From NCBI RefSeq assembly GCF_000215935.2, contig NZ_AFNU02000003.1, forward strand, positions 248,001 through 312,000: 64,000 bases of DNA. Direction: 5' to 3'. The DNA comes from Haloplasma contractile SSD-17B (GTDB lineage: Bacteria; Bacillota_I; Bacilli_A; Haloplasmatales; Haloplasmataceae). Below are positions 3,664 through 32,596 of this stretch, in pieces. Positions within the stretch are counted from its first letter, which is position 1. Every line of letters begins with the position of its first letter. Both the position numbers and the translations under genes were made by a program. The notes under the pieces were generated by a model that had not been told where the DNA came from, did not search any database, and was given only the letters and a program-made list of their open reading frames with translations.

Positions 3664-4416
3664 TTATTTTTCATTATATTCTAGCACTAAATGAATGAGT
3701 TCACGTTGTATATCTCGCGTTAACGGTTTGTTAGTAGAATCATTTGTCTTAATATAATCACTTAACTCTTGACAGTTTTGATCAATTGTAAAAATTGCTG
3801 CTATATCACTATCGATTTCTACCTTAACATGTTTATTTGCAAAAAATAAGATTCCTCTAACATCGATTGTATAACCATGTTCGTATAATAACTGCTTAAA
3901 TAAATCCATTTGACGATCAATTTGATGAGTGGGATTTTTTTTATAATGAATCTTTGAACTTTCAAATGTCTGAGAAATTACCTCATCGTAATCGTTACCT
4001 TTTAATTGTCCTGTATAATTTTTCGTCTCAATTACATAAATGCCACTTGGTCCTATCACTAAATGATCCATTTGACAACGCTCAGTGTTTATTAATAAAT
4101 CTAGGTCGTTAATGACGTTATAGGAACGAGGGAGTCGTTTTAAAAGTTTTGAAACATGCTTTTCACCCATATAACCAATATGGTATTTTTTTGCCTCTTT
4201 TTTATGAACTTTAGCACGTTTATTGATCTCGTAAATCATAAAACCGGTTATTAGTAATCCGACAGCGAATACGGCTACGTGTTTAAAGTAAAACGAGACT
4301 AAAAGATAGATACAAATGATTAACAAGATATCAAACATAAAGATCGAATATAATTTAATTTGTTTTTGATACTTCTCTTTTAAACTATTTTTATGCTTAT
4401 TAATAACCTTAGCCAT
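3664..4416 (-). CDS. Membrane-anchored NERD-domain protein
   Basis: A 250-residue protein. Residues 25-68 contain two adjacent hydrophobic helices, followed by a basic stretch and a NERD (nuclease-related) domain at about 80-195. The domain shows GYMGEKHV, CQMDHLVIGPSGIYVIETKNY and a downstream QIDRQMDLFKQLL helix, the PD-(D/E)XK-like core being D...E-T-K. NERD domains are predicted nucleases and are often found on DNA-processing or plasmid-linked proteins; chromosomal membrane-anchored forms have no firm function. The ribosome site is weak. It stands alone between two unrelated genes. The domain call is secure; activity is inferred. Confidence 0.8.
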   Translation of the reverse strand: MAKVINKHKNSLKEKYQKQIKLYSIFMFDILLIICIYLLVSFYFKHVAVFAVGLLITGFMIYEINKRAKVHKKEAKKYHIGYMGEKHVSKLLKRLPRSYNVINDLDLLINTERCQMDHLVIGPSGIYVIETKNYTGQLKGNDYDEVISQTFESSKIHYKKNPTHQIDRQMDLFKQLLYEHGYTIDVRGILFFANKHVKVEIDSDIAAIFTIDQNCQELSDYIKTNDSTNKPLTRDIQRELIHLVLEYNEK

Positions 4417-27016: not shown

Positions 27017-27973
27017 TTAGTTAAACTGTTCAAGTGTACACTCACTTACCAACTTATCTTGACGTAGCCCCTTAAAAACAGGCTGTCTTAAATGACCAGA
27101 CTTTGTACGCATCATAAACTCAACAATACAAACGAGCTCCGGCTTAAACCACTCCGTATCATTAAACTTATCTTGTTCAAAAGGAGATTCCATCTCATTT
27201 ATATAGGCAAATTTCATTATTTTTTTTGCATCTTCTTTTGAAATACCGAGCGACACATGTCCTTGATCGACTAATTTGCCAGCCTCATCGTAAACTGCGA
27301 GTAATAAAGACTTAATGCCACCTAAAACGCTTGGCACATATCCAACAATCACAAAGTCAGCGTCATACATCTTTTTAAACTTAACCCATGCTTTAGAACG
27401 TTTTCCCATATAATAAATACTATCTTTTCGCTTAGCGACCACGCCTTCTAAGTCTTGATTTGCAACGGTCTCATAAAACTCGATTCCCTTATTTTCAATA
27501 TAGCGTGAAATACTGATTGCTTCGTTCTCTTTAATGGTTTCTTGTAATCGTTTTTTACGCTCCATAAGTGATTTATGAATGAGTTCTTCATCCTTTAAGT
27601 AAACTAAATCATAAGCAACAAAAATAACCGGCTTCATCTTAGCGGCTAGTTCTATTTTAAACGAATCCATCATTAAACTACGCCTTTGAACTTCATAAAA
27701 ATCGGGTTTTCCCTCGTCCATCACGATCAATTCTCCATCTACAATACATTTATCAAGAGCTTGTTTATGTAGCTGGGATAGTTCAGGATAGGTATTATTT
27801 AAATGCTTATTGCGTTTATTCCTTAAATCTGTCATAGCTGCTTTAGGGTCCAAGTACAGAAGGCATCTTATTCCATCGAGTTTTAACTCAAATATATGAT
27901 CATCTGAATCAAATGGCTCTTCTTCAGTCAACAACATAGCACGAGCTTCTCGCTTCTCAAATAAGTCTCCCAT
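27017..27973 (-). CDS. ATP-dependent DNA ligase (LigD ligase-domain type) for end joining
   Basis: A 318-residue stand-alone ligase. The adenylation motif is FELKLDGIR with Lys31 as the AMP-accepting residue. Further landmarks are VDGELIVMD, EGVVAKR and AWVKFKK, then an OB-fold C-terminus (HVSLGISKEDAKKI, RQPVFKGLR). The polymerase/primase and phosphoesterase domains of full LigD are absent from this protein. Together with the adjacent Ku it makes a minimal non-homologous end-joining pair. Its ATG overlaps the ku stop (TAATG), so translation is coupled. Confidence 0.92.
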   Translation of the reverse strand: MGDLFEKREARAMLLTEEEPFDSDDHIFELKLDGIRCLLYLDPKAAMTDLRNKRNKHLNNTYPELSQLHKQALDKCIVDGELIVMDEGKPDFYEVQRRSLMMDSFKIELAAKMKPVIFVAYDLVYLKDEELIHKSLMERKKRLQETIKENEAISISRYIENKGIEFYETVANQDLEGVVAKRKDSIYYMGKRSKAWVKFKKMYDADFVIVGYVPSVLGGIKSLLLAVYDEAGKLVDQGHVSLGISKEDAKKIMKFAYINEMESPFEQDKFNDTEWFKPELVCIVEFMMRTKSGHLRQPVFKGLRQDKLVSECTLEQFN

Positions 27974-28740
27974 TACACACGTGGCCTTTCAGTTGCTTTA
28001 ACACTTTGCTGCAATGCTTCCATTAAATTTACAACATTTACGCCTTCTTCTTCTTTTGGAACTTCAATCTCTTTTCCTTCAATCTTCATTTCAATTGCCG
28101 CTTTTAATTTTTCGTTATATTCATTATGAAATTGATCGGGTTCGAATTCATTAGACATATTTAGAATAAGTTGTTTAGCAAGATCAACTTCACTTTGATT
28201 GACTTCTGCATGAATTTCTTTGACCTCTGCTGGTCTTATTTCATTTCTAAAAAATAATTTATTGAGTACCATATTGTTGTGGCTCATTCTGAGCGCTATC
28301 AAACTTTCATCTGTACCAAGTACAGCCTTGGCAATCCCAACCTTATTCGATTCACTTAGCGCGCGTCTTAATACTTCAAACGCTTTTTCTCCACCTTCAG
28401 GTACAACATAATACGACTTATCATAGTAAATTGAATCAATCTCAGATGCATCTACAAATTGCATAATCTGAATTGTTTTATCACGATTTGACTTAATTTT
28501 TTCGAAGTCATCATCATCAAAGGTTATATATTTGTTATCCTCATATTGATACCCTTTTATGATATCTGCATGTTTAACTTCTTCTCCACAATATTCGCAA
28601 AACTTTTTGTATTTTATTCGATGATGATCATCCTTGTGTAACATATTAAAACCAATACGTTCTTCTTTTGCAGCTACTTTTAAACTAATTGGAATATAGA
28701 TTAAACCAAATGATATGGAACCTTTCCAACTGACACCCAT
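27973..28740 (-). CDS. ku: Ku DNA end-binding protein
   Basis: A 255-residue bacterial Ku with the characteristic start (MGVSWKGSISFGLIYIPISL), a HKDDHHRIKYKKFCEYCGEEV segment with a CxxC pair, and KGYQYEDNKYITFDDDDFE. It binds double-strand ends as a homodimer and recruits the ligase encoded next. The ATG at 28740 has GAGGTGAT upstream; a GTG nine bases earlier was rejected. It is the first gene of a two-gene NHEJ operon. Confidence 0.95.
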   Translation of the reverse strand: MGVSWKGSISFGLIYIPISLKVAAKEERIGFNMLHKDDHHRIKYKKFCEYCGEEVKHADIIKGYQYEDNKYITFDDDDFEKIKSNRDKTIQIMQFVDASEIDSIYYDKSYYVVPEGGEKAFEVLRRALSESNKVGIAKAVLGTDESLIALRMSHNNMVLNKLFFRNEIRPAEVKEIHAEVNQSEVDLAKQLILNMSNEFEPDQFHNEYNEKLKAAIEMKIEGKEIEVPKEEEGVNVVNLMEALQQSVKATERPRV

Positions 28741-28844
28741 AAAAATCACCTCAAAAATAGTTTAACGCGTGATAAGGTTATTATTCATTTTAGAATTTTC
28801 AATTCAATATTTTTATTTGTCATCCTATTCGACATTATGTGTAG

Positions 28845-29778: not shown

Positions 29779-30294
29779 TTATGATTGTCTAATTCCGTAT
29801 CGACGAATCTTAGTTTCTAAGAACTGATGGAGTGGTCTATAAAGATATAAAATTGTTAATAGATTAGTAAACGCCATGATTGCTTGAAACGGTAAATCAG
29901 CTAGTAAATAAGGAATAACAGGTACTCTTGTTACTATAATCGTTCCCACCATTAAAATCAACCCATAGATGATTCCAAATAGGAATCCAAATAATGCTAA
30001 GGATACATCAGATTCCAGTTTTTTTAAAATCGTATTTAAGAATACTGGAATCAACATCCAAGCGATTAACATGGCAGGTGTATACATTAAACTAAGACTT
30101 CCCATTACTAGATTATCTAGTAGTACATAGATGAAAACAATTATACTAACCTGCTTGAACGTTAATAACCTCGTATATAATACAATTAAAAATACAGTTA
30201 ACTGAACATTCGGTACAAATAGTAAAATCTGTTCTTGTACAAAAAGAATTGTTGTTAATAAAGATAATAGGGTAATTTCCTTAATACTCATCAT
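29779..30294 (-). CDS. ECF transporter S component, predicted cobalamin-specific
   Basis: A 171-residue membrane protein with five to six helices, the size and hydrophobic pattern of the substrate-binding S subunit of energy-coupling factor transporters. No Walker motifs or partner ATPase genes are nearby, so it would use a shared EcfAA'T module encoded elsewhere, as in group II ECF systems. It is the last gene of a cobalamin-riboswitch operon, which points to vitamin B12 or a corrinoid precursor as substrate. Its ATG overlaps the stop of the DUF4430 gene (TAATG). The class call is good; the substrate is inferred from regulation. Confidence 0.8.
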   Translation of the reverse strand: MMSIKEITLLSLLTTILFVQEQILLFVPNVQLTVFLIVLYTRLLTFKQVSIIVFIYVLLDNLVMGSLSLMYTPAMLIAWMLIPVFLNTILKKLESDVSLALFGFLFGIIYGLILMVGTIIVTRVPVIPYLLADLPFQAIMAFTNLLTILYLYRPLHQFLETKIRRYGIRQS

Positions 30295-30752
30295 TAATCG
30301 AGTCCTGTATAACGTAATTCAATGACATCGCCATCTTCAAAGCTTAACTGACTAATCCCTTTAGTCGCATATTCACCGTTCTTATAAATCGCAAAATAAC
30401 TCGTTACAAAGTCTGTTTCGATTTGCTCCACTGATAGAATAACCTTTCCACTAATGGTCTCAGATTTTTCTCCACACTCTGGATCAGCTGCTCCACTTAA
30501 AGCATTTCTGCAGACAATATTATAATTTGAGTCGATTATATCGAATAACGTTACAGCGGTTCCGTCTTCTTTTTCCGTATCAAATTCTATTTGATCATTA
30601 ATTACAATTTCACCAGTCTCATCTTTTAAAACAAATGTGATCGTACCATCTGCCTCTGCCACTCCAGGCTGATAGCTGAGACGAATTGTAAAGAAAATCC
30701 CAACAACCGCGATTAGCGTTAATCCAATCTTTAAGATTGCACTCTTATTCAT
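30294..30752 (-). CDS. Membrane-anchored DUF4430 (transcobalamin beta-domain-like) protein
   Basis: A 152-residue protein: an N-terminal membrane helix (about 8-25) followed by an extracellular DUF4430 domain at about 36-150. Landmarks are TLFDIIDSNYNIVC, a YFAIYKNGEYATKGI strand pair and the final LSFEDGDVIELRYTG. DUF4430 corresponds to the small C-terminal beta domain of animal transcobalamin and intrinsic factor. Two cysteines could form a disulfide. It is the paralogue of the DUF4430 domain in the upstream lipoprotein and overlaps the ECF S gene by one base. The ATG at 30752 has AGGAGA at proper spacing; an ATG six bases earlier is too close to it. Corrinoid or partner binding is inferred. 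Confidence 0.85.
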   Translation of the reverse strand: MNKSAILKIGLTLIAVVGIFFTIRLSYQPGVAEADGTITFVLKDETGEIVINDQIEFDTEKEDGTAVTLFDIIDSNYNIVCRNALSGAADPECGEKSETISGKVILSVEQIETDFVTSYFAIYKNGEYATKGISQLSFEDGDVIELRYTGLD

Positions 30753-30802
30753 AAGCATTCTCCTAACACACCATTCCCGATCTGTTTTTACATTTTATAT
30801 TG

Positions 30803-32251
30803 TTAGTTAAAATCGTATAAATTGTATGTTGCTTCATCAGAGTTTTTAAACTCTTGATACATAACTAATGCAGCAAATGCCTGAGGTGTAGTGAAGAATG
30901 TGTCTGAATCTGCATCAGTAGTTTTATATTTAAATGATCCATCCTCTAGTTGATAGTCTAGTAATCGTGTAATTAGGTTTCCATCCGTCTTGGTAAATAT
31001 CTCTGAAGTTGGATCAATACCATTTGCAAGAAGTCCTAAAATGACTTGTGCAGTTGATGCACCATTCTCTACTTCTGTTGGATTATCAGGATCTGTCCAA
31101 AAATCTGTTGACGTAATTCCACCTGTTGAGGCTTGCTTATCGGTTGATAGGTACGTGATCGTTTCATCAATTACCGCCCCAACTGTATCATTATCAGTGT
31201 AATCTGACAGTGCAATTAGTGTTAATCCAGCTGTATCAACATCACTATTTATTGGTTTATTTGTTGTTGTTAGATCAGTAATAATAGCTGCTTCATAAGT
31301 CGATGCATCTTTACCATGATCATATGCATTTAAAGCAAGTGATCCTAAAGCAGTCGTACCATAAATTCCTATTGGTGCTTCATTTATTAATTGCTCTACT
31401 AAATCATTTCCATCAACGTCTGTAGGGTTACCGCCAACTGCTGTTACAATTGTGATTGCCTTGAATAATTCTTTACCTCTTAAAGACTCATTAATGTTAG
31501 CTGCATCAAAACCTTTATATAGTTCAGTTACTTCATCAAGTGTAACGTAATCATTTAAAATACCTAATTGATAAAGCGCACTTGCAACATGATAGTCAAC
31601 TGATTCACTATTTACATAATCGCTTGCATAGTTATCAACAAAAGTATTTATTGCTGTATCTACCGCTTGTTCCGTTTGGTCAAACCATTCAACTTTAAAT
31701 TTGAATAAGTCGCCATTATCATAAGATATTTCATCTACACCTTTGAGTGCCATCTCACCATTTTTATACAACGCGATGTAAGCACCCGTCTTAGGTGATA
31801 ATCCACCAATACCTGTGATAAAGTTTCCAAAAGTACTCTCTTCATAACTTAATGTTACATTATCCTTAATTAATTCAAACAACGTTAATTCATCTGCACT
31901 TTTATATGCAATTGATTTATAAAAATCAAATTCGTCATTCTCATGATCAATCATAACGGTTATAATACCATCAAAGTAAATTTCCTCTAACGCTTCAAGT
32001 CTTGATTTAAGATCATCAATCGTTGTTTGTTGATTAGTATCCGTTGTATCTAATCCAGCAATAATTTCCTTAAGTGAAGTTATTTCTGATTGTAAAACAG
32101 TAAGATCATCTGACTTTTCTTTTGATTCTGTTTCTAAACTTGTTAGTTTGCTTTCTAAATCCTCGATTTGTGAAGTTAGTTCGTCATTTTGGCACGCTAC
32201 TAATACAAGCGATAATAAAAATATAGAAATAAGAGACATGATTTTTTTCAT
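30803..32251 (-). CDS. Transcobalamin/intrinsic-factor-like surface lipoprotein (DUF4430 plus alpha/alpha-barrel repeats)
   Basis: A 482-residue lipoprotein; the lipobox is LVLVAC with Cys20. Residues about 24-92 form a coiled coil (stalk). Residues about 95-200 are DUF4430, with TLFELIKDN, ALYKNGEMALKGV and SYDNGDLFKFKV. Residues about 205-480 are helical repeats of the terpenoid-cyclase/prenyltransferase type with VDTAGLTLIALSDY, NGASTAQVILGLLANG, LLDYQLEDGSFKY and TTPQAFAALVMYQ. Animal B12 carriers have an alpha6/alpha6 barrel followed by the beta domain; here the same two parts appear in reversed order. A complete cobalamin riboswitch precedes the gene. Predicted role: capture of cobalamin at the surface for the ECF importer. 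Enzymatic activity is unlikely from what can be seen. Confidence 0.85.
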   Translation of the reverse strand: MKKIMSLISIFLLSLVLVACQNDELTSQIEDLESKLTSLETESKEKSDDLTVLQSEITSLKEIIAGLDTTDTNQQTTIDDLKSRLEALEEIYFDGIITVMIDHENDEFDFYKSIAYKSADELTLFELIKDNVTLSYEESTFGNFITGIGGLSPKTGAYIALYKNGEMALKGVDEISYDNGDLFKFKVEWFDQTEQAVDTAINTFVDNYASDYVNSESVDYHVASALYQLGILNDYVTLDEVTELYKGFDAANINESLRGKELFKAITIVTAVGGNPTDVDGNDLVEQLINEAPIGIYGTTALGSLALNAYDHGKDASTYEAAIITDLTTTNKPINSDVDTAGLTLIALSDYTDNDTVGAVIDETITYLSTDKQASTGGITSTDFWTDPDNPTEVENGASTAQVILGLLANGIDPTSEIFTKTDGNLITRLLDYQLEDGSFKYKTTDADSDTFFTTPQAFAALVMYQEFKNSDEATYNLYDFN

Positions 32252-32280
32252 TTCGATTCCTCCCTAATATTTTTTGCGTA

Positions 32281-32310
32281 AAAAAAAATCATACCTCTCC
32301 TTGGCATGAT
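32281..32310 (-). terminator. Riboswitch expression-platform terminator
   Basis: On the minus strand, an 8-bp stem ATCATGCC/GGTATGAT (one G-U pair) with a 7-base loop and eight T, between the riboswitch and the lipoprotein ribosome site. It implies control by premature termination. Confidence 0.88.
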
Positions 32311-32395
32311 CCATAAACGTATAGGAAAATAAAAAATTTCCAAATTAAACGTCTACTAATCTCATTCCCAGGAGAAAGTGACAACTTGTGTTAAT

Positions 32396-32540
32396 GGCAG
32401 GTCTACCGGCTTAACTTCATCCTACTAGGCACCTTCCCGCTTTCGCAGTGGTCATTGCCTTTCGTCCATATTACGGTTGCTGGGACAGCTTGAGATTTAA
32501 ACTCAATTCCCTATTAAGTTCCTTATTAAAAAGGAACACC
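32396..32540 (-). ncRNA. Cobalamin (B12) riboswitch aptamer
   Basis: On the minus strand the conserved elements occur in order: GGTGTTCC at the 5' end, AATAGGGAA, AAGCTGTCCCAGCAACCGTAA, the B12 box core (ACCACTG, 32451 region), GGGAAGGTGCC, GGATGAAG, AAGCCGGTAGACCTGCC at the 3' end. These match the adenosylcobalamin aptamer consensus closely. A consensus promoter lies just upstream and an intrinsic terminator downstream. Confidence 0.97.
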
Positions 32541-32567
32541 AAAAACTACAATTTAGTTGTTACCTAG

Positions 32568-32596
32568 ATTATATAGAGTATGACTTAATTTGTCAA
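32568..32596 (-). promoter_or_regulatory. Consensus promoter of the B12 operon
   Basis: On the minus strand TTGACA (32591-32596), a 17-base spacer and TATAAT (32568-32573): a perfect sigma-A-type promoter about 20 bases before the riboswitch. Confidence 0.9.

Follow-up and report, generated by a model that had tools for sequence, protein, structure and literature searches.

A riboswitch-controlled operon of Haloplasma contractile with transcobalamin-like proteins and a CbrT-type S component, probably for vitamin B12 scavenging

In 2007, Burroughs, Balaji, Iyer and Aravind reported bacterial proteins in which a transcobalamin-like SLBB domain is joined to an alpha/alpha toroid, with either part first; the operons held a second paralogous SLBB gene and CbiO/CbiQ neighbours in hosts without B12 synthesis, and a role in B12 scavenging, as well as transfer to animals, was predicted (PMC1796856). 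The transcobalamin-like SLBB clade is defined by a beta-grasp into which a beta-hairpin is inserted behind the helix (PMC1796856). On the side of import, CbrT is the S component of an energy-coupling factor (ECF) transporter for which import of both B12 and cobinamide has been demonstrated (PMC5997447). Here we describe an operon from a 64,000-nucleotide stretch of Haloplasma contractile SSD-17B (contig NZ_AFNU02000003.1, positions 248,001 to 312,000; hereafter the window), in which a cobalamin riboswitch precedes genes for a lipoprotein (LP), a membrane-anchored DUF4430 protein (B) and an ECF S component (S). With a probability of about 0.85, we regard this as a riboswitch-controlled B12 scavenging operon, in which LP would capture, B transfer and S import the vitamin with the help of a shared motor. 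A corrinoid-scavenging pathway had been proposed from the letters of the window (the sequence-only reading); that idea is supported, but it is less novel than was implied, having been outlined in the 2007 paper (PMC1796856).

The operon, its leader and their conservation

All features of the operon, from promoter to S gene, were found on the minus strand of the window, where the sequence-only reading had placed them. The sigma-70-type promoter (TTGACA-N17-TATAAT, 32568..32596) matches the consensus at 12 of 12 positions. The cobalamin riboswitch aptamer (RF00174, 32379..32558) was detected by cmscan with 95.2 bits (E 1.9e-22) against a gathering score of 31.5; the match is full length (positions 1-189) and is the sole Rfam match within the window. 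Between the aptamer and the LP gene stands an intrinsic terminator with a 10-pair stem followed by a T run (32286..32312). The three open reading frames encode LP (482 amino acids, 30803..32251), the CbrS-like protein B (154 amino acids, 30294..30758) and S (171 amino acids, 29779..30294), with a gap of 44 nucleotides between LP and B and an overlap of one base between B and S. The perfect promoter, complete aptamer, terminator and tightly packed gene trio that had been read from the letters are all present.

A survey of genomes for B12-riboswitch operons with this gene trio had been proposed as a check. A search for relatives based on LP returned the same trio in several genomes, with a cobalamin riboswitch ahead of each. 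A genome scan with the S alignment returned 62 loci, mostly from Izemoplasma- and Acholeplasma-type Tenericutes, Erysipelotrichaceae and other Bacilli, with Inordinaticella fortuita as the closest named relative. By profile searches, 32 of the 62 encode a beta-alpha protein followed by a beta protein and then S; apart from loci with B and S only, which are weighed below, the others are minor variants. Leaders were surveyed with a covariance model built from 14 aptamers, and an upstream cobalamin aptamer on the same strand was found at 58 of the 62 loci, mostly within ~150 nucleotides of the first gene; two of the four exceptions begin almost at a contig end. Because it recurs in dozens of genomes, the trio arrangement is far beyond chance. 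Of 42 loci tested, 32 have a terminator-like hairpin behind the aptamer, against 0.22 expected in shuffled sequence (simple base shuffles). The aptamer together with these conserved downstream hairpins supports an OFF switch that would act by termination, with a ligand response presumed from the riboswitch family.

In Candidatus Izemoplasma acidinucleici, two DUF4430 and S systems stand in tandem, each with its own cobalamin riboswitch (L062:639-822 and 4051-4246), and the first S is divergent. A scan of viral contigs returned no relatives, and the notion of a phage-borne system was dropped on that ground. Matches on plasmids included a Latilactobacillus ECF operon, which lacks a riboswitch, and a Vescimonas protein in an unrelated context.

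Predicted structures of LP, B and S

For LP, a signal peptide and a lipobox (LVAC) were identified, with Cys20 invariant across 41 aligned sequences, and DUF4430 (PF14478) was matched above the Pfam cut-off (E 6e-8) at residues 123-186 (31694..31885); 36 of the 41 family members also match PF14478. A lipoprotein with DUF4430, as had been claimed, is therefore what the gene encodes. The AlphaFold (AF2) model, based on the 41 sequences, has a mean pLDDT of 91.9 and a pTM of 0.85 and comprises, from N to C terminus, a signal helix, a coiled coil, a beta domain (~95-189) and a helical barrel. The rows behind this model and that of B came from the window and from loci related to it. The coiled-coil stalk (residues 22-92, 31976..32188) is indicated by Pfam and NCBIfam coiled-coil matches and by long helices in the model, and the alpha/alpha barrel domain (residues 190-482, 30803..31684) by a series of modelled helices. 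The beta domain is modelled as a beta-grasp with a hairpin insert (helix 124-131, strands 134-139 and 142-148).

When the LP model was compared with the PDB by Foldseek, the top matches were, in order, the beta domain of human transcobalamin (apo and B12-bound), 3u7z and whole transcobalamin, with intrinsic factor also among them. Against the LP beta domain, 5no0 and 5np4 gave TM-scores by target length of 0.77 and 0.72. The alignment with intrinsic factor runs over ~300 columns and includes the barrel, for which the TM-scores are modest, at ~0.36 by query and 0.44-0.58 by target length (0.58 for 2pmv_B). Model and Foldseek search thus place an alpha/alpha barrel and a beta domain on one chain, as in the transcobalamin/intrinsic factor family, and the proposed fold check against intrinsic factor came out in favour of both domains. 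For the barrel, other alpha/alpha toroids score about as well, and the list also holds drimenyl diphosphate synthase and GH76/GH105 enzymes. Intrinsic factor is also one of the best PDB matches to a sequence profile of whole LP, with a weak score (E 0.02). As for the terpenoid-cyclase-like repeats suggested earlier, LP itself has no such Pfam match and PF00432 is touched by 3 of 41 family members, so that what stands of this claim is the predicted alpha/alpha barrel. Searches with the single LP sequence returned coiled-coil and other noise only (phmmer against the PDB), coiled-coil noise only (NCBIfam) or no matches (genome contigs). A role for LP as an alpha/alpha-toroid enzyme was rejected in view of its beta domain and lipobox, the riboswitch and the CbrT-type partner.

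In B, DUF4430 was detected with E 8e-5 and 23.5 bits, just below the Pfam cut-off of 23.8, and the fold confirms the assignment. The model (56 sequences, pLDDT 90.6) consists of an N-terminal helix (5-28) followed by a beta-grasp with a hairpin insert (helix 71-78, then strands 81-85 and 105-110). The first 19 Foldseek matches in the PDB, with E from 1e-4 to 1.3e-2, are all transcobalamin, intrinsic factor, haptocorrin or 3u7z; the next, unrelated one has E 0.11. The second gene, which had been taken for another anchored DUF4430 protein, accordingly has the expected N-terminal helix and a beta-grasp of transcobalamin type. In the 56-row alignment, Cys83 and Cys95 occur together in 32 rows and are missing together from 24, and neither is ever found singly; this joint presence or absence suggests a likely disulfide in the hairpin insert. 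The structure 3u7z, from Ruminococcus gnavus, was deposited as 'putative metal binding' and aligns with beta domains of transcobalamin type; it is probably a corrinoid-binding protein.

The S protein alone has no Pfam match, and PF12822 (ECF_trnsprt) was matched by 2 of 11 family members. A profile built from 58 sequences returned a single PDB match, to CbrT over nearly full length (6fnp_A, E 8.2e-6), which agrees with the earlier assignment of the third gene to the ECF S components and relates it to a proven B12 S component. Since CbrT is the sole PDB relative, an alpha-ribazole transporter of CblT type was rejected. Two genes for EcfT (CbiQ family) were found in the host genome, adjoined by open reading frames that, by reading only, resemble ABC ATPases.

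Genomic context and the host's need for B12

A survey of DUF4430 across the phylum, made without reference to the window operon, returned 30 loci, 25 of which, by our count, have an S component or EcfT/EcfA-like genes as neighbours. In 12 of the 30, the stretch retrieved holds a cobalamin or AdoCbl riboswitch, and some loci run on into genes for corrinoid adenosyltransferases of PduO or CobA/BtuR type. Conversely, when the CbrT sequence was used as the query, a DUF4430 gene stood directly upstream in 16 among the 30 loci listed, several of which also encode a separate barrel protein. On a Lactobacillus intestinalis plasmid, nrdJ, a DUF4430 gene, a CbrT homologue (59% identity) and an adenosyltransferase gene stand in a row. 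This order parallels the published nrdJ-cbrS-cbrT-pduO cluster of Lactobacillus delbrueckii, by which analogy CbrS is likely to be a DUF4430 protein.

In other Bacilli (L177, L178, L190, L191 and L184), an alpha barrel and DUF4430 are encoded by separate adjacent genes with a cobalamin riboswitch, which shows that the two parts of the animal carrier need not be joined in one protein. In Enterococcus and Lactococcus, plasmids (L171 and L172) carry nrdJ, an adenosyltransferase, DUF4430 and a 'cobalamin ECF transporter' together, and one was typed as conjugative; from this the B12 system probably moves horizontally.

Markers of corrinoid synthesis and salvage tested in the host were CbiC and two adenosyltransferases. 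No CbiC match was found in the genome (98.8% complete; one marker), so de novo B12 synthesis is unlikely. The genome does encode B12-dependent NrdJ, subunits of ornithine 4,5- and lysine 5,6-aminomutase, a methylaspartate mutase subunit and a PduO-type adenosyltransferase. Given these enzymes, the EcfT genes and the missing CbiC, the host very probably imports corrinoids.

Two further cobalamin riboswitches were seen in the host. One (C4:94274-94474, minus strand; locus L020:10275-10475) lies upstream of nrdJ (L020:7352-9910, minus strand) and might be an ON switch, as repression of a B12-requiring enzyme would be odd. The third of the genome (C5:118516-118691, minus strand; locus L019:10517-10692) precedes nrdD-nrdG2, an anaerobic B12-independent ribonucleotide reductase, where a riboswitch fits the expected B12-saving control. 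Elsewhere in the window, two adjacent open reading frames at 27017-28749 (minus strand) read like an ATP-dependent DNA ligase and Ku of bacterial end joining.

Proposed mechanism, alternatives and known systems

Under the proposed mechanism, the nascent leader would bind cobalamin when it is sufficient and the terminator would halt transcription, whereas scarcity would allow the LP, B and S genes to be expressed. The coiled-coil stalk would hold LP off the membrane, and a corrinoid would be captured between its beta domain and barrel, in the manner of transcobalamin and intrinsic factor. B carries the beta domain a second time, anchored directly in the membrane, and would receive the corrinoid or present it to S; import by S would be driven by a shared EcfAAT motor whose genes lie elsewhere in the genome. 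We infer that S uses a shared ECF module and, judging by the folds, the anchoring and the conserved linkage, that LP and B bind corrinoid, which would pass from LP to B to S.

Several results weigh against this B12 scavenging operon as described. The fold of the alpha barrel is widespread, and a profile of the alpha part of LP alone gave only a weak match to squalene-hopene cyclase, not to transcobalamin. By its sequence the LP barrel is a generic alpha/alpha toroid only; the model supports the fold but no particular relatedness to the alpha domain of the animal carriers. In all 36 of 36 fused relatives the beta domain precedes the alpha domain, the reverse of the animal carriers. The analogy drawn with those carriers hence survives in the fold search, which returns transcobalamin and intrinsic factor, but not in domain order or barrel sequence. 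At 18 of the 62 loci, B and S occur without LP, which is therefore not essential to the system. The host also has two pairs of FecCD-type permeases, possibly siderophore or BtuC-type importers, and the window operon may not be its sole B12 route. Binding data for bacterial DUF4430 proteins were not found in the open-access literature, nor was any experimental study of a bacterial transcobalamin-like member (subscription papers and preprints lay outside the search).

Some of the same observations bear on what is bound, and by which protein. Instead of B12 itself, the operon could scavenge an incomplete corrinoid, such as cobinamide, or a non-standard cobamide; the riboswitch reports cellular cobalamin status only, and cobinamide is also bound by CbrT and the human carriers (PMC5997447). 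We consider this unlikely, as the genes that accompany the system in other genomes encode adenosyltransferases and B12-dependent enzymes rather than lower-ligand assembly. It is similarly doubtful that the corrinoid is bound by B and S only, with the LP barrel serving for attachment to the envelope or a partner, or for taking B12 from foreign carriers. Nearly every S has a B as its partner, LP is missing from many loci, and the generic toroid sequence of the barrel would suit such a role; against it, LP has a beta domain of its own, the combination of alpha and beta adjoins S in dozens of loci, and intrinsic factor is among the top fold matches of the barrel. Import of another nutrient, with B12 as a mere regulatory signal for a B12-independent substitute pathway, would be in keeping with the control of B12-independent isozymes by B12 riboswitches, as seen before nrdD-nrdG in this host. 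It is nevertheless very improbable, given that the only structural relative of S is the B12-specific CbrT, that the beta domains match B12-binding proteins and that corrinoid adenosyltransferase genes are neighbours in other genomes.

Beyond this operon, we lean towards the view that ECF B12 importers of Bacilli do not act as S components on their own but use dedicated extracellular helpers of transcobalamin fold, namely a lipid-anchored alpha/beta chelator for corrinoid capture and a membrane-tethered beta domain, CbrS, that would dock the corrinoid onto CbrT, and that the carrier halves are separable, occurring as a beta-alpha fusion, as split proteins or as the beta domain alone. B12 is contested in microbial communities, and its extracellular capture by Gram-positives and mollicute relatives is poorly known; the trio offers a compact system that is open to experiment. 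Should LP and B prove to bind B12, bacterial and animal carriers would be linked by function as well as fold, some ECF transporters would be seen to use extracellular helper proteins, and the 2007 proposal that the animal carrier was taken from Gram-positive bacteria would become testable. It would also explain the DUF4430 family, which Pfam still lists as a domain of unknown function, including 3u7z with its metal-binding label.

Animal transcobalamin, intrinsic factor and haptocorrin share two folds with the window proteins, the barrel and the beta-grasp with hairpin insert. LP differs from them in its reversed domain order, its lipid anchor with coiled-coil stalk and its partner, an S component; the partner of the animal carriers is a receptor for endocytosis. 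BtuG, BtuH and BtuJ of Bacteroides reportedly have folds other than those of LP and B and are partners of the TonB-dependent BtuB in the outer membrane. As is proposed for LP, these lipoproteins capture B12 at the cell surface on behalf of a transporter (PMC6143338, PMC8941943, PMC13398666). ECF-CbrT of L. delbrueckii (PMC5997447) has an S component of the same family as the window S, but identity between the two is low and the published cluster has no alpha/beta lipoprotein.

With the 2007 SLBB proteins, the window operon shares the fusion of an SLBB/DUF4430 domain to a toroid, the paralogous second gene, the surface location, the proposed role in B12 scavenging and a host that probably lacks B12 synthesis; it differs from those operons in having its motor genes elsewhere, a CbrT-type S partner and cobalamin riboswitch control. 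The operon is largely of the kind predicted in 2007 from genomes, and its binding of B12 is likewise a prediction. To this prediction are added the riboswitches linked to 58 loci, the assignment of S to the CbrT type and a likely identity for CbrS, together with the conserved trio, structural models of high confidence and a beta-alpha order that is fixed within the clade.

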